Both the position numbers and the translations under genes were made by a program. This document shows positions 3,428 through 41,374 of a DNA stretch of 64,000 nucleotides, one piece after another; the stretch's first letter is position 1, and each line of letters begins with the position of its first letter. Origin of the DNA: Acidobacteriota bacterium (lineage in GTDB: Bacteria; Acidobacteriota; Vicinamibacteria; Vicinamibacterales; 2-12-FULL-66-21); assembly GCA_003222675.1 (NCBI GenBank), contig QHWT01000042.1:1-64000 (forward strand), read 5' to 3'. A model generated the notes under the pieces. That model saw only the letters and a program-made list of their open reading frames with translations. It was not told the origin of the DNA and made no database searches.

Positions 3428-3443
3428 GTTGAGTTGGTAAAAG

Positions 3444-5982: not shown

Positions 5983-5987
5983 CTCAC

Positions 5988-6115
5988 GTGGGGCTCCGCC
6001 CCACACCCCGGCTCGGTCGCTCGCGGGGACCGCTACGCCCCGCACCGCTCCCTCGGGCCCCACGCGCGGCTGCCGCGCGTGGGGCCCCGGCTCGCAGGCG
6101 CGCCGTGCGCGCCTG
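5988..6115. terminator. Three consecutive hairpins between convergent genes
   Basis: Perfect stems lie at 5988-6004 (7 bp, loop TCC), 6055-6087 (15 bp, loop CTG) and 6095-6115 (8 bp, loop CCGTG). None has a T-tract, so intrinsic termination is not assured. Their place between the convergent PLD and phosphatase genes suggests a bidirectional stop or RNA 3'-end element. Confidence 0.5.
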
Positions 6116-6197
6116 GCCCGTTATGCGGCTCGGTGCGTCTTGGCTGGCAGCTGCCGCGAACGAGCACGAGATTCTCGCTGCAAGCCGCATAACGGGC
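6116..6197. repeat. 15-bp perfect inverted repeat with 52-nt centre
   Basis: The arms GCCCGTTATGCGGCT (6116-6130) and AGCCGCATAACGGGC (6183-6197) are exact reverse complements. The right arm ends 3 bp before the stop codon of the phosphatase gene. The GTTATGC/GCATAAC cores recall integron attC boxes, but their orientation is not canonical. Confidence 0.7.
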
Positions 6198-6200
6198 TAA

Positions 6201-7148
6201 CTACTTCGGCGGCTCGCGGCGCTTGATCACGCCCGAGTCGAACACCTTGCCCTGGCGATCGATCGCTACGAAAGTCAGATCGTCGCCGTCGATTTCCATC
6301 AGCATGAACGCGTTGTCGGTATCGAGCCCTTTCGCGGTCAGCGGCGAGCCCTTGCGAAGATCGCCTTCACGAAGCTGACCCGACGAACCAACCACGAAAT
6401 AAGCGATCCCGTTCTGCGGCTTGATCCGCTCGTAGACGTGATCGTGTCCGTTCAGGACGAGCGAGACGTTGTTCTTGATGAGGAGCGGCTCGAGCGTCGC
6501 GCGCAGCCGCGTCTCCGATCCGTGCGTCCGCGCCGACGAGTACAACGGATGGTGCCAGAAACAGATCTTCCACTTCTCGTTGGAGCCTTCGAGCTCCTTC
6601 CGGAACCACTCGATCTGTTGCGGCTCGGGATACGTACTCTCGAGCGCAAAGAAGCGCACGTCCTCCTTGGGCGCCTTGAAGCTGTAGTACAACTTCCCGT
6701 CCATGTTGTAGTACTTGTAGTACCGCTGCTCGCGTGCGTCGTGGTTGCCGAGGCTCGCATAAAACTTCACGCCCGCGTCGAGCAGCGGCTTGTACGGCTC
6801 CTCGAATTTCTGCACGAAGTCCTGCGGCCGCTCCGAGCCGTAGATATTGTCGCCCATCATCAGCACGAGCTCGTAGGCAAACCGTGCGCGCCAGGCTGCC
6901 ATCTGCTTGGCGACGTCGTACTGGCGCTGCTCGCCGTTGCCGTTGTCGCCAATCACAGCGAACTTGAGCGAGTTGGCTTTATTCGGGAGCTGGATTTCCT
7001 GCGCCGGGGCGACCGCCGCGTCCTTCGGCGCGCCCGGCGGCTCGCCGGCGACGACGATCGCCGGGCCCGCGGCGTCCGCACCGGCACAGCACACGAGTGC
7101 GATCAGCGCGCAGACAGGGGCCCACGGGCTCAGACGGCGAAGACGCAT
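6201..7148 (-). CDS. Secreted calcineurin-like metallophosphoesterase
   Basis: A 315-residue protein with a Sec signal peptide (hydrophobic core to about residue 26, ending near ADAAG). The metallophosphatase motifs appear in order: GDNGNG, MMGDNIYG, GNHD, WHHPLYSS and GHDHVYER. These supply the two-metal site typical of purple-acid-phosphatase-like enzymes. It probably hydrolyses phosphomonoesters or diesters in the periplasm or outside the cell. Its start lies 9 nt after the stop of the preceding secreted hypothetical gene, so the two are likely co-transcribed. It converges on the PLD operon across a hairpin-rich gap. Confidence 0.9.
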   Translation of the reverse strand: MRLRRLSPWAPVCALIALVCCAGADAAGPAIVVAGEPPGAPKDAAVAPAQEIQLPNKANSLKFAVIGDNGNGEQRQYDVAKQMAAWRARFAYELVLMMGDNIYGSERPQDFVQKFEEPYKPLLDAGVKFYASLGNHDAREQRYYKYYNMDGKLYYSFKAPKEDVRFFALESTYPEPQQIEWFRKELEGSNEKWKICFWHHPLYSSARTHGSETRLRATLEPLLIKNNVSLVLNGHDHVYERIKPQNGIAYFVVGSSGQLREGDLRKGSPLTAKGLDTDNAFMLMEIDGDDLTFVAIDRQGKVFDSGVIKRREPPK

Positions 7149-8383: not shown

Positions 8384-9400
8384 CTAATGGATCGGCGAGA
8401 CCGATTCCTGGGGAATGTGAGGCTCCTGCCGCTGCGGCTGGCGCCAGTAATCCATCGTCGAGACCCGGTGCACGCACCCGATCGTGCAGAGCGGAGCGCA
8501 CCACTTCGGGACGAGGAACTCGCGCCGGATGTCTTCGGTCGTATACGTCGCGAGCGGTACACCGGGACAGCCACGTTGCTGAGAGCACCAGTGCACGAGG
8601 CCGTTCTCGCAGACATACAGATAACGAGCGCCGGCGCGGCACTGCCATTCGTTCGGCCTACCGTCCGCCAGGTTTATCTGGAACTGGCGAATCCCGGAGT
8701 AGAGGTTTTTCAGCACCTGCCGGCGGGCATCGATCCGCTGCATCACATCGTCGAACACCGCGCGCTCGGCAGGCCCCAGCGGCTTCAGCAGGCCCGAGCC
8801 GTCGTGAATGATGCCGATCGACGTCGAAAACCCGAGCTCCGCCGCCCGCTGGTTGATCGTGCGCGCATCGTCGGGATTTTTGATGCCGCCTCCGACGACC
8901 GAATTGATGTTGATATCGAAATATGCGTACTCGGCCAGCCACTGCAGTTTTTTGTCGAGGAGGCGGAGGCTTTTCTTCGAAACCTCGTCCGGCTCTACGT
9001 TGTCGATGCTGATCTGCAGGTAGTCGAGCCCCGCCGTGTTCAGCGCGTCGATACGCTTCGGCGATATCAGGTAGCCGTTCGTGATGAGGCCCGCGATCAT
9101 GCCGCGGCCGCGGATCCGCGCGATGAGGCTGTCGAGATCCGGGTGCAGCATCGGTTCTCCGCCGCTGAACGCCACCACGGAGGTGCCGAGATCGGCAAGC
9201 TTGTCGATCCGCTTCAGCATCTCGTCCGTCGGGACCGGGTGCGACACCTTGTCGTACTCGTTGCAGTACCCGCAGTCGATATTGCAACGGCGGATCGGCA
9301 CGATGTGGACGAGCAGCGGGTGATCGGTGCGCGCCAGGCCGCGAAGGAATTCTCGGACGGAGCGTGCCCGTCGGCTGATCTTGTGGCGAAAACGTGGCAT
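8384..9400 (-). CDS. Radical SAM protein with C-terminal cysteine cluster
   Basis: About 338 residues. The CNIDCGYC motif near residue 44 ligates the 4Fe-4S cluster that cleaves S-adenosylmethionine. SGGEP and later TIM-barrel motifs follow. The C terminus has further cysteines (CRAG, CENG, CSQQRGC, CAPLCTIGC), consistent with a SPASM-like auxiliary cluster domain. The longer frame would begin with TTG; the ATG at 9400 (MPRFRHK) is preferred. It is 18 nt downstream of a second radical SAM gene and 4 nt upstream of yajQ. The substrate is unknown. The SPASM-type tail suggests peptide or protein modification, but cofactor or lipid chemistry cannot be excluded. Confidence 0.85.
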   Translation of the reverse strand: MPRFRHKISRRARSVREFLRGLARTDHPLLVHIVPIRRCNIDCGYCNEYDKVSHPVPTDEMLKRIDKLADLGTSVVAFSGGEPMLHPDLDSLIARIRGRGMIAGLITNGYLISPKRIDALNTAGLDYLQISIDNVEPDEVSKKSLRLLDKKLQWLAEYAYFDININSVVGGGIKNPDDARTINQRAAELGFSTSIGIIHDGSGLLKPLGPAERAVFDDVMQRIDARRQVLKNLYSGIRQFQINLADGRPNEWQCRAGARYLYVCENGLVHWCSQQRGCPGVPLATYTTEDIRREFLVPKWCAPLCTIGCVHRVSTMDYWRQPQRQEPHIPQESVSPIH

Positions 9401-9417
9401 CGAAACCAGCAATTATA

Positions 9418-10416
9418 TCAGGCGGCCGGGCTCGGCTGATTGATCGCCAAAGGCTCACGCCGCCCGCGCACCATGCGCCCGACTTTCAGCGATCCTTCGA
9501 AGATGGCGCCGACGCGCAGGCCGCCAGGCAGCCGATGGGAGGCCACGGCCGCCAGTCCCGCCGACGCGATGCATCCGCACTGTGAACAATCAGGCGTGCC
9601 GCCGAACTGGCACGGCGTGATGCGGCGCTCGAGATCCGCCGAGATGCAGCTCGTGGTCTGCGCGAAGACGCACTCCTCTGGACTCTGCGGCGGCCGTGCG
9701 TACTTCTTGATGAGCCCCTCGGGCATCTGCAATTTGTGGTATCGGTGGCGCAGCGTCATGAGGGCGGCAATAACTCGCTCCCGATCTGCCGGGAGAAGGA
9801 TCTCTTCCGCGATCTCGCCGATCTGCGGCGTGAAAAGGCTCACCCAGATTTGGCGCGTGTGCTGATTCGCCGACCAGAACCGCAGGAACTCTTCGAGGTA
9901 GCCTTCGCGCTGCACCTGCTGCCGCGTGACGGTGCAGTGCACGGTGATCTGATGCCCGACGATGTGTTTCAGGATGCGATCGTAGGTCGCGGGAGTGCGG
10001 CGAAGATCATGTTCCGGCTGCAAGCCGTCGATCGACACGACGATCTGCAGGCGCGGAATGGAGGCAAACTCCGCGGGAATCGGCCGTACTGCGCTCGTGA
10101 CAAGCTGCGAGTAGATACCGCGCGCCGCCAGCTTCGGCAGGAGCTGTTGCAGCTCGCGATAGCGCACGAGCGGCTCGCCACCAACGATGGAGACGTGAAT
10201 CGGTTTCTCTTCGTCGACGATCGCCAGGACGCGATCCACCAGTTCCTGGCCCTTGTAGTCGGTGACCTGCCGCAGCGTGACGTCGCCGCCGAGGTGGTCA
10301 TCCCCGTACGCGTAACAGCCGGGGCATCGAAGCGGGCACTCACGCGTGATTTCAATCGAGAGCGAGGGTGTATAGCCGCGCAGGATCCTGCCCCACGCGG
10401 TGATGATCCCTTCCAT
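9418..10416 (-). CDS. Radical SAM protein, second of a tandem pair
   Basis: A 332-residue protein with the radical SAM motif CPLRCPGC (about residues 27-34) and the glycine-rich SAM-binding motif VGGEP. The C-terminal cysteine set (CVFAQTTSC, CQF, CSQCGC) resembles a SPASM or twitch domain. It differs clearly in sequence from the neighbouring radical SAM protein, so this is not a recent duplication. It is the first gene of a three-gene operon ending in yajQ. No precursor peptide gene is evident in the flanks. The ATG at 10416 is used. Confidence 0.85.
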   Translation of the reverse strand: MEGIITAWGRILRGYTPSLSIEITRECPLRCPGCYAYGDDHLGGDVTLRQVTDYKGQELVDRVLAIVDEEKPIHVSIVGGEPLVRYRELQQLLPKLAARGIYSQLVTSAVRPIPAEFASIPRLQIVVSIDGLQPEHDLRRTPATYDRILKHIVGHQITVHCTVTRQQVQREGYLEEFLRFWSANQHTRQIWVSLFTPQIGEIAEEILLPADRERVIAALMTLRHRYHKLQMPEGLIKKYARPPQSPEECVFAQTTSCISADLERRITPCQFGGTPDCSQCGCIASAGLAAVASHRLPGGLRVGAIFEGSLKVGRMVRGRREPLAINQPSPAA

Positions 10417-12284: not shown

Positions 12285-12677
12285 ATGATCGAGAAGCGTC
12301 GTTCCGCTATCCAGGGCTGGGGCGTATTCGCCACCGAGCCGATTCCCAAGAACAAGCGCATCGTCGAGTACGCCGGGGAGAAGATCAGCAACAGGGAAAG
12401 CCTGAAGCGCGAGGTGCGCTACCTGAAGCAGGGGCACATCTGGTGCTTCAAGCTGAATCGGCAGTACGTCCGTGATGCCGCGGTGGGTGGAAACGTCGCG
12501 CGCTATATCAATCACGCGTGCGCGCCCAACTGCTACACTCGCGTAATCGGCGATACGATCTGGATCATTGCTGCGCGCAACATCCGCAAGGGTGAAGAGC
12601 TCACCTACGATTATTCGACCGATGGCGAGGGCTCTATCAGGTGTCGCTGCAGCCCAGGCTGCAAGACAATGATCTGA
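12285..12677 (+). CDS. Stand-alone SET-domain protein (putative lysine methyltransferase)
   Basis: A 130-residue protein consisting almost only of a SET domain. It has GWGVFA (SAM-binding start of SET), ARYINHACAPNC (SET pseudoknot NHxCxPNC), GEELTYDY (catalytic Tyr region) and a post-SET CRCSPGC that with the pseudoknot Cys could bind zinc. All core residues appear intact, so an active S-adenosylmethionine-dependent protein-lysine methyltransferase is expected. Such minimal SET proteins are common in eukaryotes and sporadic in bacteria. The target is unknown. Flanking genes are envelope or esterase genes and give no clear context. Confidence 0.92.
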   Translation: MIEKRRSAIQGWGVFATEPIPKNKRIVEYAGEKISNRESLKREVRYLKQGHIWCFKLNRQYVRDAAVGGNVARYINHACAPNCYTRVIGDTIWIIAARNIRKGEELTYDYSTDGEGSIRCRCSPGCKTMI

Positions 12678-13435: not shown

Positions 13436-14605
13436 TTACAACAGGTGAATGCGTCCGTCGCCGTCGCCGCGCGTGACGTGGACCCGGCCGATATCGTCGC
13501 CGATCGTCTCGATGAGGGGTTTGGACATCGCCAGCAGGTAGTTCGAGTGCGCGGACGCGAAGCCGGCCTGCCGAAAGGCAGAAATCCAGAGGGCGTGCGA
13601 CTGGTTCGTGATGATGAGATCCACCCAGTTCGCCAGCGCGTGTGACAGGGCGGATGCGAGCGACGGCGCAGCGTCGGGAAGGCTTACGGCATCCAGGACC
13701 GTTGCGACCCGCAGGTTTCCAAAATACTGGTGGTCGTGCATGGCAGTCTGCGCGCAGACGGCCCACCCAATCACCGAATCCCGATCGCGGAACGTGTAGG
13801 CGGCGTACCGCTGATCCTCGAGGGGATACAAGCAGTCGAGCGTGGTGCAATCGCGCGCGATGGAAAACGAGTACAGGTCGCGTGTACGGTTCCACACGGC
13901 GTCCGCCCACTCGCCCCAGCGCGTCACTCGCTCGATCCGAAGCGACGAATGACCCGCGCGCGCCCCCCTGGCGTGCAGCAGCGTGGCGCCGATCCAGCCG
14001 GCGCCGCTGTAGGCGGCGAGACGGGCCGCGACCCGCGTCAAGAGTCGCCGCTGCAGCGGACGCAGTTCCCGCAGGACGCGGCGCGGTTGGACGATCCTGA
14101 ACAGGAAGGGTACAGTACGGAGCGTCCAGCCGCCCGCCGCGAGCAGTCGCGGCAGCGGCCTGTCGGGTGCGCCCATGCCGACGACGAACGTGTACGGCCA
14201 GTGCCGCTGCACGTACCGGACCATGTGCATCCCGACCATGCCGTAGCGTTTGTCGAGAATCCCCTCGGAGACCGGCGACTGGTAATTGGCAGCCGCCACC
14301 GAGCGCCCGTTCAGGCACGCGCGCTGCTCCATCAGCATGAACCCGCCGCGCACCTCATCTCCCTCGTCCACGGCCAGGTACTTGGTCCACGTGATCGCCG
14401 CGTCCTGGACGCCAGCGTCGTATTTGTTCGGCCGGTCTGGCAGAACGAAGTCGGTTGGTGCGCGACCGGCGAGCATGCGTTCGTTGAACGCGCGGACGGC
14501 AGCGCTTTCTGCGTTCGTGTAGCGCACAATCCGTGTCGTCACGCTGCGACCGCGCGGCCCCACCGGAACCGGTTCGGCTGCATCGCCTGTTGCCAGCGAG
14601 TTCAT
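13436..14605 (-). CDS. GNAT/FemAB-like acyltransferase of the exopolysaccharide locus
   Basis: A 389-residue protein. It contains strand-helix patterns of the GCN5-related fold (YGMVGMHMVRYVQRHW and a C-terminal half starting YAAYTFRDRDSVIGWAV), suggesting a double-GNAT or FemAB-like acyltransferase. FemAB-type proteins are known in exosortase-A polysaccharide loci. No certain family name can be given. The ATG at 14605 is chosen over 14638 because it makes an ATGA overlap with the preceding stop. It is the last gene of the coupled E1-E2-ACP-deacetylase-acyltransferase run and is a plausible final acyl acceptor enzyme (inference). Confidence 0.65.
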   Translation of the reverse strand: MNSLATGDAAEPVPVGPRGRSVTTRIVRYTNAESAAVRAFNERMLAGRAPTDFVLPDRPNKYDAGVQDAAITWTKYLAVDEGDEVRGGFMLMEQRACLNGRSVAAANYQSPVSEGILDKRYGMVGMHMVRYVQRHWPYTFVVGMGAPDRPLPRLLAAGGWTLRTVPFLFRIVQPRRVLRELRPLQRRLLTRVAARLAAYSGAGWIGATLLHARGARAGHSSLRIERVTRWGEWADAVWNRTRDLYSFSIARDCTTLDCLYPLEDQRYAAYTFRDRDSVIGWAVCAQTAMHDHQYFGNLRVATVLDAVSLPDAAPSLASALSHALANWVDLIITNQSHALWISAFRQAGFASAHSNYLLAMSKPLIETIGDDIGRVHVTRGDGDGRIHLL

Positions 14606-15552
14606 GAGGTCCCGCGGAACACTTTTTCCCACAGCCATCGCGTTTCGAGCTTCCGTCGTTCATGATCGCTCAACTGCGTGAGGCCCTGATATTGCTGCAG
14701 GTACTCGAGGAGCGTCGAAACAGGTGCAAACCACCCGGGTTTGCGACTGAGACGGCGCATCAGGTCGACGAACCGTGGTGACACCGTATCCCCCTCCACA
14801 AAAGCGTGCCCGAAATGGGTGTACATGATGCACGCGCCGCCCTCGGCTTCCAGACGATCCTGATTGCGCTCGTGCAGCGCATCGAGAAACCGGGGCGCGT
14901 TCGATCCCTCGCTTGACGCGTACCACGCATTGACAAATGGTTTGGTCGGGTCGTGATACGGCATGGACGGGCATGCCGCAAGCGTATTCACGTCCGCATA
15001 TACGAAGTTACGGCAATACTGAATGCGCTCTCGGCATACCTCGCCCCAGAACGACTCGTGCCCGGGAATGTGACCGAAGTGCCGGCCCTTTGTCCGTCCG
15101 ACCGTCACCGCGATGTACACAGCCCGAAGGGGTGGTGTCAGACGCGCTGGCCCCCAGTACATCGCGTCCGCGTTGTAGTGGTTCGCCATTGCCGAAGGGT
15201 CGCGCCCGAAGAAATCCTTGAACGCGTCCAGTCCCGCAATGATCTCCTGCCGGCGCGACGAATGCTTTGTATGGTTGTGGTATCCCACTTCGAATCCGGC
15301 CGCTTGCAGCATCTGGGTGTGACGCGTGTACTCCACATCGTCACATGCCGCGCCCAACGAGTTTGGCGTACGAACCGGCGTTCCCGGCCAGACGCCGCGC
15401 GTTGTCCGGAATCCCATCTCCGCGAGCAAGCCGTAGACACGTTTGCCGTCTTCGACGGTCTGCCCGTCGGGATCGTCGAAGATGGTGAACGCGAACTGCT
15501 TGCCATCCGGCCAGCGGATGGCGGGCCGCGCGTCGGTCGCCAATGACGTCAA
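14602..15552 (-). CDS. Polysaccharide deacetylase-fold protein
   Basis: A 316-residue protein with the hallmarks of a NodB-like TIM barrel: an FDD near the N terminus (TIFDDPDGQT), HNHTKHSS as the metal-binding HxxxH-like segment, and a late YTHFGH. It probably removes an N- or O-acyl group from a sugar precursor or polymer. No signal peptide is seen, so it may act on cytosolic lipid-linked or nucleotide sugars. The likely start is TTG at 15552, overlapping the ACP stop as TTGA. It overlaps the next gene by 4 nt. Deacetylases are standard members of exosortase-A polysaccharide loci, but this one is not obviously the DUF3473 type. Confidence 0.75.
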   Translation of the reverse strand: MTSLATDARPAIRWPDGKQFAFTIFDDPDGQTVEDGKRVYGLLAEMGFRTTRGVWPGTPVRTPNSLGAACDDVEYTRHTQMLQAAGFEVGYHNHTKHSSRRQEIIAGLDAFKDFFGRDPSAMANHYNADAMYWGPARLTPPLRAVYIAVTVGRTKGRHFGHIPGHESFWGEVCRERIQYCRNFVYADVNTLAACPSMPYHDPTKPFVNAWYASSEGSNAPRFLDALHERNQDRLEAEGGACIMYTHFGHAFVEGDTVSPRFVDLMRRLSRKPGWFAPVSTLLEYLQQYQGLTQLSDHERRKLETRWLWEKVFRGTS

Positions 15553-15815
15553 GCTCGCGCGAGATAGTCGACCATCGCGTTGACAGTGCCGAAGTTCTCG
15601 ATTGTCAGATCCGCCTGCTCGATGGCGAGATCGAAGCGCGTCTCGTACCAGACGATCAGTTCCATGATGCCCGCCGAGTCCAGCAGGTTCGTCTCGGGTA
15701 TTACTTCGTTGTCGCGGAAGCCGGTCACGCGGATCCCGCGCGCCCGAGCCAGCTCCACGACCTTCGCGTGTATTTCGCGCGCCGCTTCGGCGCGATCGAA
15801 GGTACGTGGCGTCAC
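15549..15815 (-). CDS. Acyl carrier protein
   Basis: An 88-residue, acidic, helical protein of carrier-protein size. LLDSAGIMELIVWYE contains the DS motif whose Ser47 would carry 4'-phosphopantetheine, and a helix-2 pattern follows. GTG at 15815 overlaps the E2 stop as GTGA, and its own stop overlaps the next start, so it is coupled on both sides. A dedicated ACP next to E1 and E2 genes suggests an acyl chain made or received here and used in the polysaccharide pathway (inference). It does not look like the housekeeping fatty-acid ACP. Confidence 0.88.
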   Translation of the reverse strand: MTPRTFDRAEAAREIHAKVVELARARGIRVTGFRDNEVIPETNLLDSAGIMELIVWYETRFDLAIEQADLTIENFGTVNAMVDYLARA

Positions 15816-16948
15816 GATATTCCTTCCGGCACGCTGATGTCGCGAACTGCAGAGAGCGCGTCGACGCCGGTCAGGACGCGATGGTCGTAGGTCGCGCCGA
15901 GCGTCCCGATGCCGTTGAACGTTGCCGCGTGCGCGATCATGAGCGATGTAAAAGGGGGCAGCACGGGAACGTGGCGGCTGACGTTCCAGCGGGCCATGCT
16001 GCTGAATGAGACGGTGGCGCCAGTCAGATCGGCGGAGCGCAGCCTGTGGCCGAGGGCGCCGCGCTGAACGTCGCCGAGCCGCGACACGAACTCTCGGCAC
16101 GACATCGCCGCGGCGTTCTGGATCACCGCCAGGTACAACGTCCTGTCGCTCTGGATCGTGAACCCGAGGTTGACGCTGCTGTAGACGTAGAGGGCGTCGC
16201 CGACAATAGTTGCGTTGATGCGCTCCTGTTGTGCGGCGACGCGCACGAGCCGATAGGCCATGAGCGCCAGCAGCGGATTCAACAGCAGCTTTTCGGCCTT
16301 CTGGAAATCGGCGGCGATCCGCTCCCAGGGCGCGGCGTCGTACTGCACCTCGACATAGCCGGGCACGGCCTCCTCGCGCTGCCACACGACCGTCCGGAGC
16401 ATTCCGCGTTCCTCGGGTGTCAGCGCACGGATGGCGCCGGCCGCGCTCGGCGTCGACCCACGCGACTCCGCACGCGGCAGCACCGGCACAGGTGCCGTGT
16501 CTGCCGACGCCACCGGTTCGGTCGGACTTGTGCGGGTCGCCACGTACGCTTCGATGTCGCGGACGGTCAGGCGATCTCCCGCGGCCGGTACCTCAGACGC
16601 CGACAATCCATGTTTCGCGAGCAGCTGCGCGGCCTTCAACGTCGGTTGCGCGCCGGTCCGCGCCGCAGGCGTGGGTCCGTTCGAGCTCGGTGCGGGCGCA
16701 GGTTCGTCGGGGGTGGCCCCGAGCCAGAGGAGCACGGAACCGACGTTGATTGTCTCGTTGAGTGCCTGCGCGACGGCCAGCACGTAGCCGTCCTGTTCCG
16801 ATTCGACGGTAAAGTTCGCCTTGTCGGTTTCGACCTCGGCGACGACGTCTCCAGCCCGAACAGCGTCGCCGCGCTCGACGAGCACCTTAACCAGCCTCAC
16901 AGTGTCGTCGTTGTTGTTCACGCGAGGCGTATAGAGCGGCGTCGGCAT
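15812..16948 (-). CDS. 2-oxoacid dehydrogenase E2-like (dihydrolipoamide acyltransferase) protein
   Basis: A 378-residue protein with three E2 parts. The lipoyl domain (residues 1-75) has the lipoylated Lys43 in ETDKANF. A peripheral-subunit-binding domain lies at about residues 127-165, between Pro/Ala-rich linkers. A C-terminal acyltransferase-like domain occupies about residues 200-378. The catalytic motif reads DHRVLTGVD instead of the usual DHRxxDG: His356 is kept but the essential Asp is replaced by Thr360. It may be catalytically altered, or transfer the acyl group to something other than CoA. It starts in a TGATG overlap with E1 and ends in GTGA with the ACP. Confidence 0.9.
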   Translation of the reverse strand: MPTPLYTPRVNNNDDTVRLVKVLVERGDAVRAGDVVAEVETDKANFTVESEQDGYVLAVAQALNETINVGSVLLWLGATPDEPAPAPSSNGPTPAARTGAQPTLKAAQLLAKHGLSASEVPAAGDRLTVRDIEAYVATRTSPTEPVASADTAPVPVLPRAESRGSTPSAAGAIRALTPEERGMLRTVVWQREEAVPGYVEVQYDAAPWERIAADFQKAEKLLLNPLLALMAYRLVRVAAQQERINATIVGDALYVYSSVNLGFTIQSDRTLYLAVIQNAAAMSCREFVSRLGDVQRGALGHRLRSADLTGATVSFSSMARWNVSRHVPVLPPFTSLMIAHAATFNGIGTLGATYDHRVLTGVDALSAVRDISVPEGIS

Positions 16949-18999
16949 CAGTCTGGGTCGGCGACGAAGGATGCCAGACGCTGGAACAACACATCTTCAC
17001 CGGGCAGCACCTGCGATTCGAGACTCCGCGCCGCGGGGATTGGAACCGGCGACGTACCGATGCGCGTTACGCGGCCGGCATACCGGCGCTCGAGCAGCGA
17101 CGCGGCGAGTTCCGATCCAAATCCTGGACCGAGATACGTCTCTTCGACGATGGCCACGCGTTCCCGTTTCATCAGAACGTTCAGGAGCGTTTCGCGGGGC
17201 AGAGGCTGAAGCAGCGACGGCGCCACCAGTTCCACCACGAAATCTTCGGCCTCGAGCAGATCGGCGACGCGTTCGATGACCGGCAGCATGCCGCCGTAGG
17301 CGACGATCGTCAGGTCCGGATGCGCTCTGGTCCGGACGAGCGTCGGGAAGCGGTCCGCTCCCGCATCGCTTGCCGTGGCTGGCGTCTCGACGTAATCGCC
17401 ACGGTGCTGCATTTCACCGTAGAGCAGTTTGTGCTCGAGGAACACGACCGGGTGATCCCAGCCGACGGTCGCCGTTTCGAGGAGCGATCCGATATCGTGG
17501 CGATGGCTGCCAAACACGACAGTGAGGCCTGGGACGCCGCTGAGGAGATTCTCCGGACTCTGGCTATGGGTCGGGCCATAGCCGCGCCGGCCGCCGCACG
17601 GCGTCCGGATGACGAGCGGCACAGCGCAGTGGTCGAACATCGACGGGAACTTCACCGCGTGGTTATAAATCTGATCCATCGCGAGAAAGATGAAGTCCGC
17701 GAACATGATCTCGACGACCGGGCGAAATCCCGCCAGCGCGAGACCGATCGCCGCACCAACGACTCCGGCTTCGCTGATCGGCGTCGACAGCACGCGCCCG
17801 CGGAAGTCGGTCGACAGCCCCTTGGTGACCTTGAACGCACCGCCGTACGGATCGTGAAGATCCTCGCCGAGGAGCAGGACCTCAGAGTGCCGCTCCAGCA
17901 ACTCCCGCAGGGCCGCATTCAGGGACGCGCGCACATTCCGCGCCGGGGCGGGCGCCCGTTGCCGCGAAACCGCAACGGTGCCGCCGGTCACCGACACCGA
18001 ATCGCTCGGCGCCGCCTGCCGCGATTCGGGCGCAGCCATTGCGCGATCGCGGACCAGCTGAATGTAGGCGTAGTTCGCGGCTTCGACTTCCGCGCGTTCC
18101 TCGGACCGGAGCGAGTCTCCAAGCCGCATCAGCGGATCGCGGAGGCGAATCGCATCCATTTCATCGGCGTCGCGCAGGTCGTCGCCTTTGCTGTGTGGGC
18201 CAAGGCGGCGAGTATGAATCACGAGGAAGCCCGGCTCGCGCTGCTGCCGCATCGACTTGACGACTTCCTCAGCCGCCGCCATGAACCCGGCGTCGGCATC
18301 GTCAAGCTCCCAGGTGCGCAGGCCGAACGCCGCTCCGCGCGCCGTCAGGGATCCACCCACGGTGTCGGCCGTCGGAGTGGTTTGGGCAATCCCGTTGTTC
18401 TCGACGACGAATAGCATCGGCACGCGCCACACCGCCGCGAGATTGAGGCTCTCGTACAGGAGCCCCTCACCGAAGGTGCCGTCGCCGATGAAACAGGTCA
18501 CGATCCCGCTCGACTGTCGCATCCGCCGTGCGAGTGCGAGGCCTGCGCCAATCGCGCTCATGCCGGCCTGCACGCCATTGCTGTGGAAGTGACGGAAAGC
18601 AAGGTGTTGACTGCCACCCACGCCGCGGCACACGCCCGACTGCCGGCCCATGATTTCCGCGACCAGCGGCTCGAACGCGCCGGAGTAGGTGAGGAAGTGC
18701 CCGTGATTGCGATGGTTCGACAGCACGACATCTTCAGGGTCGGTCAGCGCGCGGACCACTGCCATCTGACAGAGTTCCTGACCGATACACGTGTGGGTCG
18801 TTCCCGAGAGCAACCCCTTCCCGAACAGATCGAGAAGCAGTTGTTCGGTCAATCGGATGAGATGCCCGAACCGGTAGACAACAGCCGAATCGAGCGGCAA
18901 CATCGGCTTTGCATGTACGTCCCGTTCAATGCCTGGGACGTTATCGGCCTGTCTCAACAAGACGGCCGCGGCCGGTTGCGGTTCGTTGACCTGCGCCAT
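16948..18999 (-). CDS. Fused E1 alpha-beta subunit of a 2-oxoacid dehydrogenase-like complex
   Basis: About 683 residues. The alpha half has the thiamine diphosphate motif GDGTFGEG...VVENN (about residues 172-203). The beta half, from about residue 360, has LSTPISEAGVVGAAIGLAL and DQIYNHAVKF. A linker rich in Ser, Ala and Pro joins them. It would decarboxylate a 2-oxo acid and load the acyl group onto the E2 lipoyl arm. The substrate is unknown; pyruvate, a branched-chain 2-oxo acid or a dedicated precursor are all possible. The ATG at 18999 is used, but TTG at 19062, with GGAG 7 nt upstream, is an alternative start. No E3 gene is present, so housekeeping dihydrolipoamide dehydrogenase would have to serve. 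Confidence 0.92.
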   Translation of the reverse strand: MAQVNEPQPAAAVLLRQADNVPGIERDVHAKPMLPLDSAVVYRFGHLIRLTEQLLLDLFGKGLLSGTTHTCIGQELCQMAVVRALTDPEDVVLSNHRNHGHFLTYSGAFEPLVAEIMGRQSGVCRGVGGSQHLAFRHFHSNGVQAGMSAIGAGLALARRMRQSSGIVTCFIGDGTFGEGLLYESLNLAAVWRVPMLFVVENNGIAQTTPTADTVGGSLTARGAAFGLRTWELDDADAGFMAAAEEVVKSMRQQREPGFLVIHTRRLGPHSKGDDLRDADEMDAIRLRDPLMRLGDSLRSEERAEVEAANYAYIQLVRDRAMAAPESRQAAPSDSVSVTGGTVAVSRQRAPAPARNVRASLNAALRELLERHSEVLLLGEDLHDPYGGAFKVTKGLSTDFRGRVLSTPISEAGVVGAAIGLALAGFRPVVEIMFADFIFLAMDQIYNHAVKFPSMFDHCAVPLVIRTPCGGRRGYGPTHSQSPENLLSGVPGLTVVFGSHRHDIGSLLETATVGWDHPVVFLEHKLLYGEMQHRGDYVETPATASDAGADRFPTLVRTRAHPDLTIVAYGGMLPVIERVADLLEAEDFVVELVAPSLLQPLPRETLLNVLMKRERVAIVEETYLGPGFGSELAASLLERRYAGRVTRIGTSPVPIPAARSLESQVLPGEDVLFQRLASFVADPD

Positions 19000-19079: not shown

Positions 19080-20396
19080 CTACCAGCAGAGACCGCGATA
19101 TTCGGCTGGCACTTGCAACGGGTCGAGCGGCAGCCGCACGAGATCGATGACGATCTGGTCCGGCCGTGTCGCCCTCACCGCATCGGCGAACTCCGGCGAC
19201 TGATTGCCGATGACGATGACGTCAGACTTGTCGATGACGTCCTGGATCGTGTCGCAGAGCAGTGACGAGAGGTGCGGAATCTGCTTGTTGATGTAGTCCT
19301 TGTTGGCGCCGACCAGCCGCGCAAGTGACACGTTCCGATCATAGATGCACAACTGGCAGCCCTTGCCGAGCAGCGCCTCGGCGAGGATCACGATTGGGCT
19401 CTCCCGAAGATCGTCCGTCCCCGCCTTGAAGCTGAATCCGAGCAGCCCTACGCGCTTTTTTCCGGTCTCGACGATCTCATCGAGTGCGTGCCGGATCTGC
19501 AGCTGGTTGCTGGTGAGGATCGACTGGATCACCGGCATCTCCAGGTCGACTTCCTTCGCGCGGTACTGCATCGCGCGCACATCCTTCGGCAGGCACGACC
19601 CGCCGAACGCGAATCCGGGCTTCAGATAGTACGACGACAGGTTCAGCTTTTCGTCGCGGCAGAAAATGTCCATGACCTCATGGCTGTCGATCTTCAGCCG
19701 CTTGCACAGGTTGCCGACCTCGTTCGCGAACGTCACCTTCAGCGCGTGCCACGTGTTGCTCGCGTACTTGATCATCTCCGCCGTGCGAATCGTCGTCGTG
19801 ACCATCGGCGCCTGCACGTTCGCGTACAGTGCCTGCGTCGGATCGGCGTCCGAACGGTAGTTGTGGCCAACGAGCGTGAGCGGAGGATTGCGGAAGTCGT
19901 AAATCGCCGTACCCTCGCGCAGGAACTCCGGATTGACGGTGACGCCGAAGCCGGTGCCGTACTTCTTGCCCGACGTCCGCTCGATCGCGGGAATCACCAC
20001 GTCATGCGTCGTACCTGGCAACACGGTGCTGCGGACGCAGACGATGTGATAGCTGTCCTTGGCGCGCAGCGCTTCGCCGATCTGCTCTGCGACACGCGCG
20101 AGGTACCTGAGGTCGAGGCTGCCGTTCTTGCGGCTGGGCGTGCCGACGCAGATAAGCGACAGTTCCGTGTCATTCACCGCTTCGGCGCTGCTGGTTGTCG
20201 CCCGCAGCCGTCCGTTGGCGGCGTTGTCGCGAATCAACTCGTCGAGCCCCTTCTCGACGATCGGGCTGCGCCCCTCGTTGAGACTCGCCACCTTGTCGGG
20301 GTTCACGTCGACACCGACCACGCTGTGGCCGTCTGCGGCGAACGACGCCGCCGACACGCTCCCGACGTAACCCAGACCGAAAACGGAAACATTCAT
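19080..20396 (-). CDS. algD: GDP-mannose 6-dehydrogenase (AlgD-like)
   Basis: A 438-residue NAD-dependent nucleotide-sugar dehydrogenase oxidising a hexose C6 to the uronate. It has an N-terminal Rossmann motif (GLGYVGSVSAASFA), NPEFLREGTA, a catalytic-Cys motif GGSCLPKD and GFSFKAGTDDLRESP. The stretches TAEMIKYASNTWHALKVTFA and KLNLSSYYLKPGFAFG resemble AlgD of alginate producers more than UDP-glucose dehydrogenases. The length matches AlgD (436). ATG 20396 follows GGAGGAG at good spacing and is preferred over the in-frame start at 20438. It implies GDP-mannuronate as a precursor of the polymer. Confidence 0.9.
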   Translation of the reverse strand: MNVSVFGLGYVGSVSAASFAADGHSVVGVDVNPDKVASLNEGRSPIVEKGLDELIRDNAANGRLRATTSSAEAVNDTELSLICVGTPSRKNGSLDLRYLARVAEQIGEALRAKDSYHIVCVRSTVLPGTTHDVVIPAIERTSGKKYGTGFGVTVNPEFLREGTAIYDFRNPPLTLVGHNYRSDADPTQALYANVQAPMVTTTIRTAEMIKYASNTWHALKVTFANEVGNLCKRLKIDSHEVMDIFCRDEKLNLSSYYLKPGFAFGGSCLPKDVRAMQYRAKEVDLEMPVIQSILTSNQLQIRHALDEIVETGKKRVGLLGFSFKAGTDDLRESPIVILAEALLGKGCQLCIYDRNVSLARLVGANKDYINKQIPHLSSLLCDTIQDVIDKSDVIVIGNQSPEFADAVRATRPDQIVIDLVRLPLDPLQVPAEYRGLCW

Positions 20397-20482
20397 TTTT
20401 GCTCCTCCGCTCGGTGGACCCTCCTGGACCTTTCCCACCTCACGCCTTCGCTCGCCGCGCGCCGCAGGCCCTGCCCAGCTCC

Positions 20483-21715
20483 TTATGCTGCCGCCCGCTT
20501 TGCCGCAGCGCGCCGAAGCGCGTCTTCAAAATCCATCGCAATGGCCGACCAGTCGTAGCGCTCCACGACGAGGCGTCGGGCGGCGGCTTCGATCGCCTGC
20601 CGCGCCGGTGCGTCGCGCATCAGGTGCACCACACCCTCCGCGAAACGTGCGGGATCGTCCGCAATCATGACGTCACGTCCGGATGTGACGGGCAGCCCCT
20701 CAGCGCCGACCGTCGTGGAGACGACAGCCTTGCCCATGGCCATCGCCTCGAAGATCTTCAGCCGCGTGCCGCCACCAATCCGGAGCGGCACGACATAGAC
20801 CTCACCCCTTGCGACGTGCGGCCGCACGTCGTCGACACGCCCCGTGACCTCGACATTGTGCTCTTCAGCGAGCCGCCGAACGGCGCGGGTCGGCGAGCGG
20901 CCGATGATGCTGAGCGTCGCGTCGGGTTCGGCCTCGCGAATGCGCGGCAGGATCTCGCGGCAGAAGTACACCATCCCGTCCTCGTTCGGCAGCCAGTCCA
21001 TGGAGCCTGTGAAGACGACGTGCGCGCGTTCCGGCGCGCCTGCATCCGGCTTGAAGAACGACGTGTCGACGCCCGTCTGCACGACGTGAATGGGCGCGCG
21101 CAGCGCGCGCGGGTACAGCCGTTCGAACGTCTCTCGATCCGTGTTCGACACGGCGAGCACGAGATCGAACCGCGCGAGCGCATTCCGCTCGAAGCGCAAC
21201 ATGCGACGCCACTGCTGCGCGAGGAGGCGCCGCGAGACGGGCTTGGAGGCATGTTCCGCGTGACGTCGCCAAATCTCCGCTTCGACGTTATGCGTAAAGA
21301 GGACGGACGGGCAGGGCAGAGCGTCGGGAAGATTTACGATCGGCGGCAGGAAGTCGCATACCAGCGCGTCGAAGCGCTCGGTTCCGAGCAACTGTTCGAG
21401 ACGGGCGCGATAGGCGGACGAGCGATATTTCGCGACGGCGTACGGCGCCGGCTCGAGGAGATACTTTGCCACATCGGCATGGAAGCGCCACGTCCCCTTC
21501 GCGGTATCGGTTCGCGCAATCGTCTCGAGCCGTGAGCAGACCTGACGCATACCGTCGCGATTCGGATCAGCCACGCGCATGTCTGAGGGCTCGCCAAATG
21601 ACAAGTACGTGATGTCGTGTCGCTCCGCGAGGTGTCGCAGCACGTGCCACGTGCGAAGCTTGCCCCCTTTGTCGAGCGGCAGCAGCAGCCCCGCGTTGAG
21701 CCACAGGATCTTCAT
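20483..21715 (-). CDS. GT4 glycosyltransferase, Stp1-like (PEP-CTERM/EpsH1-associated type)
   Basis: A 410-residue GT-B glycosyltransferase. The N terminus MKILWLNAGLLLPLDKGGK and TWHVLRHLAERHDITYLSF resemble the sugar transferases known from exosortase-A loci (TIGR03087 type). The C-terminal half has the donor site VVPLRIGGGTRLKIFEAMA with the EX7E-like glutamate. It is cytosolic or membrane-associated and adds a sugar during repeat-unit assembly. Its ATG overlaps the preceding amidotransferase stop as ATGA. An 86-bp gap follows before the AlgD-like gene. Confidence 0.88.
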   Translation of the reverse strand: MKILWLNAGLLLPLDKGGKLRTWHVLRHLAERHDITYLSFGEPSDMRVADPNRDGMRQVCSRLETIARTDTAKGTWRFHADVAKYLLEPAPYAVAKYRSSAYRARLEQLLGTERFDALVCDFLPPIVNLPDALPCPSVLFTHNVEAEIWRRHAEHASKPVSRRLLAQQWRRMLRFERNALARFDLVLAVSNTDRETFERLYPRALRAPIHVVQTGVDTSFFKPDAGAPERAHVVFTGSMDWLPNEDGMVYFCREILPRIREAEPDATLSIIGRSPTRAVRRLAEEHNVEVTGRVDDVRPHVARGEVYVVPLRIGGGTRLKIFEAMAMGKAVVSTTVGAEGLPVTSGRDVMIADDPARFAEGVVHLMRDAPARQAIEAAARRLVVERYDWSAIAMDFEDALRRAAAKRAAA

Positions 21716-23811
21716 GCGGTGGCCCGCTTCTTCTCAATGGCGGGGTCCGCTGCACCCCGTCCCTCGGCGAGCTCGGGACGCCCTGAGCCTGTCGAAGGGC
21801 GCGGGGGTCGCTTCGTTCGGTGGGGCCGCGAGTCCCACTCCGCTCTGCCCGCGGTCTGCGCCTCCGGACGCCGCTCGGTGCGCGACGTTGGCGCAGGCAG
21901 CGTCTGGATGCCGCCGCCGTCGATGAACGTCCGATACCAGAGCTCCAGGTTGAGGAGACTCCAGATCGCGTCGCTCCCTTCGATCGTGCCCGCCTGGTGC
22001 GCGTCGATTAACCGACGCACGGCCGCGGCATCGATGATGCCGCGGTCGCGTGTGCGGCGATCGAGCAGCACCTCTCGTGCCGCATCGCCCCACGCGCCGC
22101 GCGTCCATAGCGCGAACGGCACCGGGAAGCCCATCTTCCTGCGCGTGAGAATCTCCCGCGGGAGGATCGTCTGCACGGCTTTTCGAAGGATCCACTTGGT
22201 GGTGAAGCCGCGCAATTTCATCCGTGGAGGCAGCGCGGCCGCGAACTCCACGAGGTGGTGATCCAGGAATGGGACGCGGCTCTCGATCGAGGCCGCCATG
22301 CTCATCTGGTCCTGCTTCATCAGCAGTTCCACCAGGTACGTTTTCAAATCCGTATAGAGAAGCCGGTCGAGCACGGTGCTACGGCCGTTCGGCAGATCGA
22401 AGTACGCGCGGGAGGTGGCGTACGCGCTCTGCTCGGTCGCGAGCAGGCCGAGCCGCGGCGCCAGCAGCGTGGCCTGGCGCTGAAGACCGACCGAGGCGAA
22501 GTTGTCGAAGAACATGGACTCCGGCGTGGGCCGCATCACGAGGAACGAGCGACGGGCATAGCGAGCCAGGCGACCTGGAAGTCGCGGCACGAGCGTGTCG
22601 GCGACGAATGCGCGGACCGGATCCGGCGCGAGATTCCACAGCTTGCCCGCGCGCCAGTTGACGAGCGCGCGCGGATATTTCCCGTAGCCGCCCAGCAACT
22701 CATCGCTGCCTTCGCCGGTCAGCACCACTTTCACGTGCGACCGCGCGAGCTGCGACACGAAATACAGCGGTACGCTCGAGGGATGCGCGATCGGTTCGTC
22801 CTCGTGCCAGACCAGCCTTGGCAGCGCGCCGAAGAAGTCCCGATCGTTGATGACGATCTCATGCGCATCAGCCTTGATCGCGCGCGCGACCTGTCTCGCG
22901 TACTCGAGCTCGCTGAACGCGCGCTGTTCGAACGCCACCGAGAAGGTCTGCAGCGGACGATCGATCATGCCGGCGATCAGCGCCGCGATCGCGCTGCTGT
23001 CCAGACCGCCTGACAGGAACATCCCGAGCGGCACGTCGGCCATCAGCCTCGTGCGCACGGCGTCTTCGAGCTTCGTCCGGAACTCCGCAACCGCCTCGCG
23101 GTCGGAAAGCCGTGCGGACGCCGCGTCGCCGTTACCAACAGGAATGTCCCACCAGCACCGGATCGTGACGGCGCCGCGTTCAAACAGGAGTATGTGGCCC
23201 GGCATCAATCTGTGGATGCCTTTAAAGAGCGTCTCGCTTCCCGAGAGGTAGCGCGTGCTGAGCAGCTCCGGGATCGCGTGCTCGTTGGCTTCGGCACGAA
23301 CCAGGCCGCTCTCGAGGATGGCCTTGATTTCGGACCCGAAGAGCAGGCGCGTGCCGACAAGCGTCCAGTAGAGCGGCTTGATGCCCATGCGATCGCGCGC
23401 GAGAAGCAGGCGTCGCCGCGGCGCATCCCAGATAGCAAACGCGAACATGCCCCGGAGCCGTTCGACCGCGCGGTCTCCCCACTGCTCGTAGGCGTGCACG
23501 ATCGTTTCAGTGTCGCAGCGCGTCTTGTATCGATGTCCAAGAGCTTCGAGCTCGGGCCTGATGTCGGCGTGGTTGTAGATTTCACCGTTGAAGACGATCC
23601 AGATCGTACCGTCTTCGTTCGATAGCGGCTGTTGTCCTGCCGCGAGATCGACGATGCTCAGACGGCGATGGGCGAGGCCGGCGTGGGAGTCAGCGAAGAT
23701 ACCGGCTTCGTCGGGGCCGCGGTGCGTCATGACGTCCCGCATCGGCACGAGACGTGTGCGATCGTCCCCCTGAAGACCGTCAGTCGCGACAATGCCTGCG
23801 ATGCCGCACAT
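21712..23811 (-). CDS. Asparagine synthase-type glutamine amidotransferase 1
   Basis: A 699-residue protein with a class II glutaminase domain beginning MCGIAG (Cys2 nucleophile) and including FNGEIYN and CDTETIVHAYE. The synthetase domain has the ATP pyrophosphatase loop FLSGGLDSSA. Exosortase-A loci carry homologues that are thought to amidate uronic acids or related carboxylates on the polymer (TIGR03108-type; inference). All catalytic motifs look intact. The last 60 or so residues are a low-complexity tail partly encoded by the CTTCGACAGGCTCAGGGC-type repeat, so the true core ends near residue 635. It is the third of three such genes in transcription order. Confidence 0.9.
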   Translation of the reverse strand: MCGIAGIVATDGLQGDDRTRLVPMRDVMTHRGPDEAGIFADSHAGLAHRRLSIVDLAAGQQPLSNEDGTIWIVFNGEIYNHADIRPELEALGHRYKTRCDTETIVHAYEQWGDRAVERLRGMFAFAIWDAPRRRLLLARDRMGIKPLYWTLVGTRLLFGSEIKAILESGLVRAEANEHAIPELLSTRYLSGSETLFKGIHRLMPGHILLFERGAVTIRCWWDIPVGNGDAASARLSDREAVAEFRTKLEDAVRTRLMADVPLGMFLSGGLDSSAIAALIAGMIDRPLQTFSVAFEQRAFSELEYARQVARAIKADAHEIVINDRDFFGALPRLVWHEDEPIAHPSSVPLYFVSQLARSHVKVVLTGEGSDELLGGYGKYPRALVNWRAGKLWNLAPDPVRAFVADTLVPRLPGRLARYARRSFLVMRPTPESMFFDNFASVGLQRQATLLAPRLGLLATEQSAYATSRAYFDLPNGRSTVLDRLLYTDLKTYLVELLMKQDQMSMAASIESRVPFLDHHLVEFAAALPPRMKLRGFTTKWILRKAVQTILPREILTRRKMGFPVPFALWTRGAWGDAAREVLLDRRTRDRGIIDAAAVRRLIDAHQAGTIEGSDAIWSLLNLELWYRTFIDGGGIQTLPAPTSRTERRPEAQTAGRAEWDSRPHRTKRPPRPSTGSGRPELAEGRGAADPAIEKKRATA
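21759..21803. repeat. Dispersed repeat (CCTTCGACAGGCTCAGGGC type) in a CDS tail
   Basis: On the minus strand it reads CGCGCCCTTCGACAGGCTC and continues AGGGCGTCCCGAGC. Related units are scattered in many bacterial genomes and give STGSGRPE-like or FDxLR-like peptides depending on frame. Here it lies inside the C-terminal tail of the amidotransferase. A second copy is at 25759-25795. Confidence 0.75.
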
Positions 23812-23815
23812 GGAA

Positions 23816-25735
23816 TTAGATGGCCTCCGCGTAGCGGACGTCGGCCGAGCTCGATCGAGGGGCGGCGTCGATGAACCGTCGAAACCACAACTCGAGCATC
23901 AGCAGCTGCCAGATGCGATGCCGATGATCCGCGCGTCCGTCGCGGTGTTCGGTCCACATCCGCGCAACCTCGTCGTCGTTGAAGATCCCGCGATCGCGCA
24001 GGCGGCCGTCGCGAAGCAGCGCGTCCGTCATTGGAGCGAGCGCGCCCCGGAGCCACTCTCCGATCGGCGCCTCGAAGCCGCGTTTACCGCGTTCGAGGAT
24101 CGCGCGCGGCACCTTACGCTCGAGCGCCTTGCGGAGGAGGTATTTCGTCCGGCCGTCTTTCAGCTTCAACGAGCTGGGTACGGAGGCGGCGAACTCGAGG
24201 AGCCTATGGTCCAGCAACGGCTCGCGCGCCTCCAGCGACACGGCCATGCTCATGCGATCAACCTTCGTGAGAATGTCGTCGACCATGTAAGTGTGAACGT
24301 CGACATAGAGGGCGCGGTCGAGAGGATCCGCGGAACCGCACCGCCGATACGCGTCCCGGAATGACGCGAAGGGATCGGTCGCGGCGACGGCTTCCGCAAA
24401 GTCACCGGAGTACAGGCGGCGCTTTGCATCCGGCTCGAACATGCCGTAAGCGTGCTTCAGCGCGTAGGCGTGCTCGGGCCGATAAGACAGATGGCGCAGT
24501 GCGCGCGCACCTTTCACGGACAAGGGCAGCGCGCGTCCGATCCAGCCCGCCGCGGCGCGCGCAGGTCCCAGACTCGTGCGCGCCCGCTGCTCCCACCGCT
24601 CGACGCGATGCCGCGCATAGCCGGCCCACAGCTCGTCGCCGCCGTCACCGGACAGCGCGACCGTCACGAGCTCGCGCGCGGCCTTCGAGACGTAGTACGT
24701 CGGTACGGCGGACGAGTCGGCGAAGGGCTCGTCGAAGTGCCACGCCAGCCTCGGCAACAGCGACACGATATCGGGCGTGACGGTGCGCGGATGGAATGCG
24801 CACCCGAGATGCTCCGCCACTGTGCGCGCGTGGGCGAGCTCGTCGTACGCGGCGTGATCGAATCCAACGGCGATCGTCACCGGCGGCTGCGGGCTCGTCT
24901 CCACCATGTACGCGACCACCGCGGTCGAGTCGATCCCGCCTGACAGAAACGCTCCGAGCGGCACATCGCTGATCTGACGCAGCGCGACCGATTCCCGGAG
25001 TAGTGTGTCGAGCTGATCGAGGTACTCTGCTTCGCGCTGCGGGCTGCCATCGCCGGTGAAGGCAAGATCCCAGTACCTGAAGGTCCGAACGCGGCCCTTC
25101 TCGGCAACCAGAACGTGGGCCGGGGGCAGCTTCTGAATGCCGCGATAGATCGTCGTCGGTGCCGGGATATAGAGCAGCGTGAGATACGCGTCTATCGCCT
25201 CGGCGTCCCATTCGCGCGGCACGCCCGGATCCTCGAGCAGCGACTTCAGTTCCGAACCAAACACAAGGCCGCGGCCGGGCAGTTCGACGAAGTACAGGGG
25301 CTTGACACCGAGTCGATCGCGTGCGAGCACCAGCCGTCGCGCCTTCGCATCGTAGATCGCCAGCGCGAACATGCCGCGAAACCGCTCAACGCAACGTTCG
25401 CCCCATTGCTCGTAGCCATGGACAATGATCTCGGTGTCGGAAGATGTACGGAAGCGGTGCCCGAATGCGATGAGTTCCGCTCGCACGTCCGCGAAGTTGT
25501 AGATCTCGCCATTGAAGACCGTCCAGACGCTGCCATCTTCGTTGGCGAGAGGCTGATCGCCGGTTGCCAGATCGATGATGCTCAGGCGACGGTGGCCCAG
25601 ACCGACTCCCGGCGCTACGTAATAGCCGGACGCGTCAGGGCCGCGGTGCGAGACGGCATCCGTCATCGCCGTCAGCACATCACGATCGACGGGGCGCAAC
25701 GGGTCGTAATTGAAGCAGCCGGTGATCCCGCACAT
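23816..25735 (-). CDS. Asparagine synthase-type glutamine amidotransferase 2 (XrtA-locus type)
   Basis: A 639-residue protein. It starts MCGITGCFNYDP with the Cys2 nucleophile, has FNGEIYNFADVR in the glutaminase domain and FLSGGIDSTA in the synthetase domain. The residue pattern LRPVDRDVLTAMTDAVSHRG resembles the amidotransferase of exosortase-A polysaccharide loci (TIGR03108). The frame extends upstream to 25840, but the ATG at 25735 exposes Cys2 as required. It lies 2 nt after the GT4 stop. It differs clearly from the two flanking amidotransferases, so each may amidate a different residue (inference). Confidence 0.92.
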   Translation of the reverse strand: MCGITGCFNYDPLRPVDRDVLTAMTDAVSHRGPDASGYYVAPGVGLGHRRLSIIDLATGDQPLANEDGSVWTVFNGEIYNFADVRAELIAFGHRFRTSSDTEIIVHGYEQWGERCVERFRGMFALAIYDAKARRLVLARDRLGVKPLYFVELPGRGLVFGSELKSLLEDPGVPREWDAEAIDAYLTLLYIPAPTTIYRGIQKLPPAHVLVAEKGRVRTFRYWDLAFTGDGSPQREAEYLDQLDTLLRESVALRQISDVPLGAFLSGGIDSTAVVAYMVETSPQPPVTIAVGFDHAAYDELAHARTVAEHLGCAFHPRTVTPDIVSLLPRLAWHFDEPFADSSAVPTYYVSKAARELVTVALSGDGGDELWAGYARHRVERWEQRARTSLGPARAAAGWIGRALPLSVKGARALRHLSYRPEHAYALKHAYGMFEPDAKRRLYSGDFAEAVAATDPFASFRDAYRRCGSADPLDRALYVDVHTYMVDDILTKVDRMSMAVSLEAREPLLDHRLLEFAASVPSSLKLKDGRTKYLLRKALERKVPRAILERGKRGFEAPIGEWLRGALAPMTDALLRDGRLRDRGIFNDDEVARMWTEHRDGRADHRHRIWQLLMLELWFRRFIDAAPRSSSADVRYAEAI

Positions 25736-25737
25736 GG

Positions 25738-26913: not shown

Positions 26914-26926
26914 AAGCTGCCATCTC

Positions 26927-26942
26927 AGCAAGGCAGGTGCCA
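26927..26942 (-). promoter_or_regulatory. Sigma-54 promoter, full consensus match
   Basis: TGGCACCTGCCTTGCT matches TGGCAC-N5-TTGCW at all 11 scored positions. It lies in the 85-bp gap between amidotransferase 3 and the GT4 gene, inside the operon, and would give a very short leader for GTG 26913. Confidence 0.7.
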
Positions 26943-26964
26943 CCGGTAGAGGGCTCAGATTGGG

Positions 26965-26982
26965 AAAATCTTTGGAGATTTT
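26965..26982 (-). terminator. AT-rich hairpin after amidotransferase 3
   Basis: AAAATCT and AGATTTT form a perfect 7-bp stem with a 4-nt loop, starting 17 nt after the stop codon at 26999. On the minus strand the stem ends in TTTT. It could be a weak terminator or attenuator just before the internal sigma-54 promoter. Confidence 0.45.
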
Positions 26983-26998
26983 GAGCGATTTCGGCAGC

Positions 26999-41373: not shown

Positions 41374-41374
41374 C

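Follow-up and report, generated by a model that had tools for sequence, protein, structure and literature searches.

In Nod factor N-acylation the deacetylase, the N-acyltransferase and the dedicated acyl carrier protein (ACP) are NodB, NodA and NodF respectively, while exopolysaccharide (EPS) loci of the XrtA (exosortase A) type carry genes for a TIGR03006 deacetylase, a TIGR03019 FemAB protein and an acyl-CoA ligase. N-glycolylmuramic acid arises through NamH by hydroxylation of the N-acetyl group. A ready-made glycolyl group is known from nonribosomal peptide synthetase (NRPS) pathways, where NapB/C/D, QncN/M/L and SclQ1-4 are described as transferring a C2 unit of a ketose phosphate to an ACP, which then carries it as glycolyl (PMC6335953; PMC7570522). 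The dnacin proteins DinS and DinU, homologous to NapD and NapB respectively, have been linked to a hydroxyethyl unit that derives from xylulose-5-phosphate and is carried by the ACP DinT (PMC7570522). Here we analyse a module of five minus-strand genes at 13436-18999 of a 64,000-nucleotide stretch (the window; contig QHWT01000042.1, assembly GCA_003222675.1) from an Acidobacteriota bacterium. They encode a fused thiamine diphosphate (ThDP)-dependent E1, an E2-like lipoyl protein, a dedicated ACP, a NodB-like protein and a tandem GNAT protein. On balance it is probable that the module forms glycolyl-ACP and then N-glycolylates a glycan amine after N-deacetylation.

Results

The module is real, conserved and rare, and all five open reading frames (ORFs) are present. 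The E1 (16948-18999, 683 amino acids), in which the alpha and beta parts are fused, matches the Pfam families E1_dh (2.6e-38), Transket_pyr (4.4e-31) and Transketolase_C (3.1e-18), and its gene overlaps by 1 nucleotide (nt) that of the E2-like protein (15812-16948). The latter contains a lipoyl domain (Biotin_lipoyl, 2.4e-14) with an ETDKA lysine and a 2-oxoacid_dh catalytic domain (3e-16) in which HRVLTG replaces the usual HxxxDG; residues 105-140 resemble a subunit-binding domain by eye, although Pfam reports none. The ACP gene (15549-15815, GTG start) overlaps the E2 gene by 4 nt; its product has an invariant DS phosphopantetheine attachment site and a PP-binding match (0.0015) that falls slightly short of the Pfam cut-off. 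The gene for the NodB-like protein (14602-15552), a candidate N-deacetylase, overlaps the ACP gene by a further 4 nt with its TTG start. The last gene (13436-14605) encodes the candidate glycolyl-ACP N-acyltransferase and overlaps its neighbour by 4 nt if the ATG at 14605 is the start; the longest ORF begins at 14638. Five genes with 1- to 4-nt overlaps had been reported in a preliminary description of this stretch, and the ORFs and overlaps read directly from the sequence confirm this. No Pfam or NCBIfam model matches the NodB-like or the GNAT protein of the window.

The lineage of the E1 gives an indication of what the module may make. In a phylogenetic tree the 11 E1s from loci with the E1-E2-ACP cassette (see below), those of two actinobacterial sets (L038 and L118) and RenH, which comes from the renieramycin biosynthesis cluster, form a 14-member group that a 100/100 branch parts from nine ordinary E1s and six named pyruvate dehydrogenase (PDH), 2-oxoacid or acetoin E1s. 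RenH is the named member of this group, beside the two unassigned actinobacterial sets. Six exact E1 motifs separate 13 out of 13 cassette and actinobacterial E1s from 55 ordinary E1s; as RenH retains only one of the six exactly, this comparison was replaced by a less biased one based on 77 alignment columns picked from the cassettes alone, of which RenH and both actinobacterial E1s share 39 each and the six named controls 6-13. The NCBIfam 2-oxoacid models all score far under their cut-offs, the best being E1 alpha with 186.6 against 393.85 bits. In the actinobacterial set L038 (plasmid pSCAT of S. cattleyicolor, 2694-7098), genes for a ketosynthase III (KSIII), an ACP, E1 alpha, E1 beta and E2 lie beside a polyketide synthase; the ACP-E1alpha-E1beta-E2 succession follows the SclQ1-4 order, and this looks like an SclQ-type glycolyl-ACP set. 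The other, L118, contains KSIII, E1 alpha, E1 beta and E2 with a reductase-like gene.

The E2 departs from its ordinary counterparts in a corresponding manner. The aspartate of HxxxDG is absent in 14 of 14 family members, which have threonine, serine or asparagine at this position, whereas it is present in all 28 comparison E2s showing the motif; the lipoyl lysine is kept in these 14 E2s. The best score of the window E2 against a curated family is 60.7 bits, the cut-off being 722. Given a clade of E1s with glycolyl-making relatives, the product is likely to be glycolyl-S-ACP rather than an acyl thioester derived from an ordinary 2-oxo acid. The preliminary description had proposed such an acid as donor and had regarded an oxoacid dehydrogenase route to an acyl group as unfamiliar; the first suggestion is not supported, the E1 being of the RenH clade, whose published relatives use ketose phosphate and give glycolyl, and the loading of an ACP by E1/E2 is a route known from NRPS pathways.

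The cassette recurs in distant genomes. The window E1 was scanned against 84,980 species genomes, and an E2 profile was then run on sampled genome sets. The scan returned five loci at 59-62% identity, followed by a drop to 30-39%, and in all five E1, E2 and ACP stand in order. The E2 profile, which gives module E2s 473-605 bits and the remaining E2s of those genomes no more than 122 bits, added five loci (L117, L119, L120, L121 and L125), such that the E1-E2-ACP order is seen in 11 of 11 loci, that of the window and one in each of ten further genomes from several phyla. All five genes in the order of the window were found again in three genomes (L041, L043 and L125), where the unit stands alone among unrelated genes. 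L039 has the same five genes with the GNAT gene divergent, the NodB-like and GNAT genes flanking the cassette. The gene order is thus more than a chance arrangement, and a conserved unit leading from E1 to lipoyl-E2 to a dedicated ACP is supported.

The cassette is rare. In its own phylum, from which 396 genomes were sampled, it was found in the window only, with a less sensitive single-sequence E2 query; the other matches of this phylum-wide search were low-scoring, none having the remaining module genes adjacent, although one adjoined an E1 of ordinary level. It occurs in 4 of 349 genomes sampled from the order of a Nitrosomonas metagenome-assembled genome, and 396 genomes from an actinobacterial phylum yielded one cassette and one NRPS-type set (L118); three further samples gave 1 of 249, 2 of 250 and, at full score, 1 of 210. 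In 100 relatives the NodB-like gene is absent except for two weak partial matches, which suggests horizontal gain. The cassette of L117 (G491:C64) is accompanied by exosortase-A hydrolases and an amidotransferase. Although its genome was sampled in an actinobacterial phylum, its E1 groups pairwise with that of Nitrosomonas in the tree, so that this bin may be mixed.

The last gene of the module is a tandem GNAT by predicted fold, its model (predicted local distance difference test score, pLDDT, 71.8) aligning along most of the protein with N-myristoyltransferases and tandem GNATs at E-values of about 1e-8. For the NodB-like protein D27, D29, H92, H125 and H246 are invariant and the top PDB match is a putative polysaccharide deacetylase (E 0.01). 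The window protein matches none of the deacetylase family models significantly, and two relatives touch DUF2334 with 0.0011 at best. A NodB fold is weakly supported; of the deacetylase and acyltransferase pair put forward previously the GNAT fold and a deacetylase-like partner stand while the NodB fold is less secure. Neither protein of the window matches TIGR03006 or TIGR03019. A Bacteroides plasmid carries a polysaccharide locus in which a protein 31% identical to the NodB-like protein adjoins a GNAT. This pair (L036, 8024-9981, Bacteroides thetaiotaomicron) was seen with no E1-E2-ACP genes, and a NodB-like/GNAT pair may therefore act with another acyl donor.

Most loci that lack the NodB-like/GNAT pair have another GNAT beside the cassette. 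In three Burkholderiales genomes (L119-L121) the cassette adjoins a GNAT-like gene without detectable relation to the window GNAT, together with a gene whose product shares 39% identity with an annotated polysaccharide deacetylase; a Pfam search with this deacetylase-like gene returned nothing, its assignment resting on similarity to annotated polysaccharide deacetylases. The Burkholderiales-type GNAT is also found beside or near the cassette in L040 and L117, within XrtA loci. When the profiles of the two GNAT groups were compared, and likewise those of the two deacetylase groups, the shallow alignments indicated no relation (probability about 0.5%). Altogether a GNAT adjoins the cassette in five of the six loci without the NodB-like/GNAT pair. 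That a GNAT, in most cases together with a deacetylase-like gene, accompanies the cassette so repeatedly is the strongest evidence that a freed amine is N-acylated.

The window (64.1% G+C, from a 7.16-Mb draft genome) contains an XrtA-type EPS locus by gene content, and the module closes this long, mostly same-strand run. Directly upstream of the module, across an 80-nt gap, the run ends with a nucleotide sugar dehydrogenase (19080-20438, minus strand; TIGR03026, 1.4e-124, above cut-off), preceded by a TIGR03087-like XrtA-system glycosyltransferase (20483-21715, minus strand; 274.8 bits, cut-off 316.65). Three XrtA-type asparagine-synthase-like amidotransferases (21712-23811, 23816-25735 and 26999-28945, minus strand) score below cut-off with TIGR03108 and above it with TIGR01536, a glycosyltransferase-like ORF sitting between the last two. 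The clustering of three TIGR03108-like genes within 21712-28945 suggests that a single polymer carries more than one uronamide or amide modification. The EPS core (40051-48644, minus strand) includes an XrtA ATPase, a sugar transferase, a tyrosine kinase and a chain-length determinant, with TIGR03015 and TIGR03013 above cut-off and TIGR03018 and TIGR03007 below. No exosortase match was found within the window; the two exosortases of the genome lie on other contigs of the draft. Inside the run, at 41375-43722 (minus strand), YvcK-like and nucleotidyltransferase-like proteins were recognized by eye. A small SET-domain protein (12285-12677, plus strand; PF00856, 3.8e-26) adjoins the module on the opposite strand, and at 8384-10416 (minus strand) two adjacent ORFs, radical SAM-like by eye from CxxxCxxC-type motifs, lie upstream of a PspTM-like or adhesin-like ORF.

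Discussion

The pathway that we favour would begin with a ketose phosphate, for instance xylulose-5-phosphate or fructose-6-phosphate, from which the fused E1 would take a C2 unit on ThDP before handing it to the lipoyl arm of the E2, where reduction of the lipoate would bring the unit to the glycolyl oxidation level. The E2 would then transfer it to the phosphopantetheine of the dedicated ACP, giving glycolyl-(hydroxyacetyl)-S-ACP. Because no E3 gene was seen among the module neighbours, we propose that the general cellular E3 re-oxidizes the lipoate. In a cytoplasmic precursor, the NodB-like protein would deacetylate an acetamido sugar, and the amine so exposed would receive the glycolyl group from the ACP through the tandem GNAT, so that an N-glycolyl sugar would appear in the EPS. 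The genes, their operon-like overlaps and conservation, the E1 clade, the E2 motif change and the GNAT fold are all observed. The ketose donor and the glycolyl identity are likely in view of the E1 clade, while the sugar acceptor and the deacetylase activity are what we infer from the partner genes.

Several observations weigh against this pathway. The activity of RenH itself was assigned by homology, and the E1 comparison contains RenH and unassigned actinobacterial sets without NapB or QncN sequences; the cassette E1s form a subclade of their own, which makes a different donor possible. The model of the NodB-like protein is poor (pLDDT 49) and the usual HxxxH is incomplete in some members, the second histidine not being invariant. 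L042 has no evident partner gene. The placement in polysaccharide loci claimed by the preliminary description holds for the window, L040 and L117, all XrtA loci, and fails for six of the 11 cassettes (L041, L042, L043, L119, L121 and L125), which have no recognizable polysaccharide cluster in the flanks read. A module lying mainly away from such loci had been named there as a refutation of the proposal, and these six amount to this in part; the acceptor may therefore belong to a different class or have no linkage to the cassette.

Alternative explanations differ in which half of the pathway they dispute. An ordinary 2-oxo acid dehydrogenase E1-E2 pair might load acetyl or a longer acyl group onto the ACP for amino-sugar N-acylation, as the PDH-type domain content of both proteins and the best profile scores, which are those of general PDH models, would suggest. 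This is unlikely, however, as no NCBIfam 2-oxoacid model comes near its cut-off, the E1 lies outside the ordinary PDH/acetoin group with a 100/100 branch and the HxxxDG aspartate is replaced; an ordinary 2-oxoacid dehydrogenase identity is disfavoured by the E1 clade and the E2 motif change alike. Glycolyl-ACP might instead be made for a lipid, a peptidoglycan precursor or a small molecule, its position beside EPS genes being incidental, which would suit both the isolated units of L041, L043 and L125 and the resemblance of the GNAT in the fold search to N-myristoyltransferase, which acts on peptides. We regard this as quite unlikely in view of the XrtA/EPS context of the window, L040 and L117, the NodB-like relative beside a GNAT in the Bacteroides polysaccharide locus and the deacetylase-family partner in Burkholderiales.

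It is highly improbable that the module combines two separate functions, an acyl-ACP for some other use and an unlinked deacetylase with a CoA-dependent acetyltransferase. The Bacteroides pair seen without the cassette and the cassettes without the pair (L040, L042, L117 and L119-L121) would fit such a division, yet the junctions in the window overlap, the same five genes occur together in four other genomes and a GNAT adjoins the cassette in nearly all loci that lack the pair. Returning to N-glycolylation by transfer from glycolyl-ACP, its broader form is that of a self-contained, horizontally spread module which makes glycolyl-ACP from ketose phosphate, places N-glycolyl groups onto surface glycans after N-deacetylation, combines an antibiotic-type E1-E2-ACP set with Nod-like deacetylase and acyltransferase genes and has been assembled at least twice with unrelated partners; this we advance tentatively, as a possibility somewhat short of even.

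Within the open-licence literature we found no report of an E1-E2-ACP cassette in EPS or exosortase loci and no description of this route to glycolylated bacterial sugars. The first half, glycolyl-ACP from ketose phosphate, is known NRPS chemistry; for its combination with deacetylase-like and GNAT genes in EPS loci this literature yielded no account. If the proposal is correct, ketose-to-glycolyl-ACP chemistry, known from NRPS antibiotic pathways, would extend to surface polysaccharides, and N-glycolyl sugars would be reached by transfer, a route that differs from N-acetyl hydroxylation. It would also explain the 'pyruvate dehydrogenase' genes that adjoin ACP genes in XrtA loci, predict glycolic acid as the polymer modification and offer a compact enzyme set for glycolyl-ACP production.

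Set beside known systems, the module shares with NamH an N-glycolyl sugar as proposed end product, although it would transfer a ready-made glycolyl group and not hydroxylate. To the Nod factor system the likeness is one of logic only, the NodB match not being significant, with a C2 glycolyl in place of a fatty acyl group and E1-E2 instead of NodE. The window shares the core genes of XrtA EPS loci, and the L040 and L117 cassettes lie within full XrtA loci; however, the window NodB-like and GNAT proteins fall outside TIGR03006 and TIGR03019 and the cassette occurs in few genomes. With pyruvate, branched-chain and acetoin dehydrogenase complexes the E1/E2 domain architecture and lipoyl lysine are common, in contrast to the other E1 clade, the absence of an E3 from the neighbours seen, the change of HxxxDG to HRx(L/V)(T/S/N)G and the attached ACP gene. 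A ThDP E1, a lipoyl E2 and a discrete ACP are shared with the NRPS glycolicacyl-ACP cassettes (NapB/C/D, QncN/M/L, SclQ1-4, DinS/T/U and RenH/RenI), RenH/RenI having the E1 clade and E2 motif in common with the window module and SclQ the gene content (PMC6335953). In the window E1 alpha and beta are fused and the E2 is separate, whereas NapB is a 306-residue alpha-like protein and DinS/NapD are large (PMC7570522). Unlike the NRPS cassettes, the window module has NodB-like and GNAT partners with no NRPS or KSIII seen, and its relatives occur in an EPS or stand-alone context.

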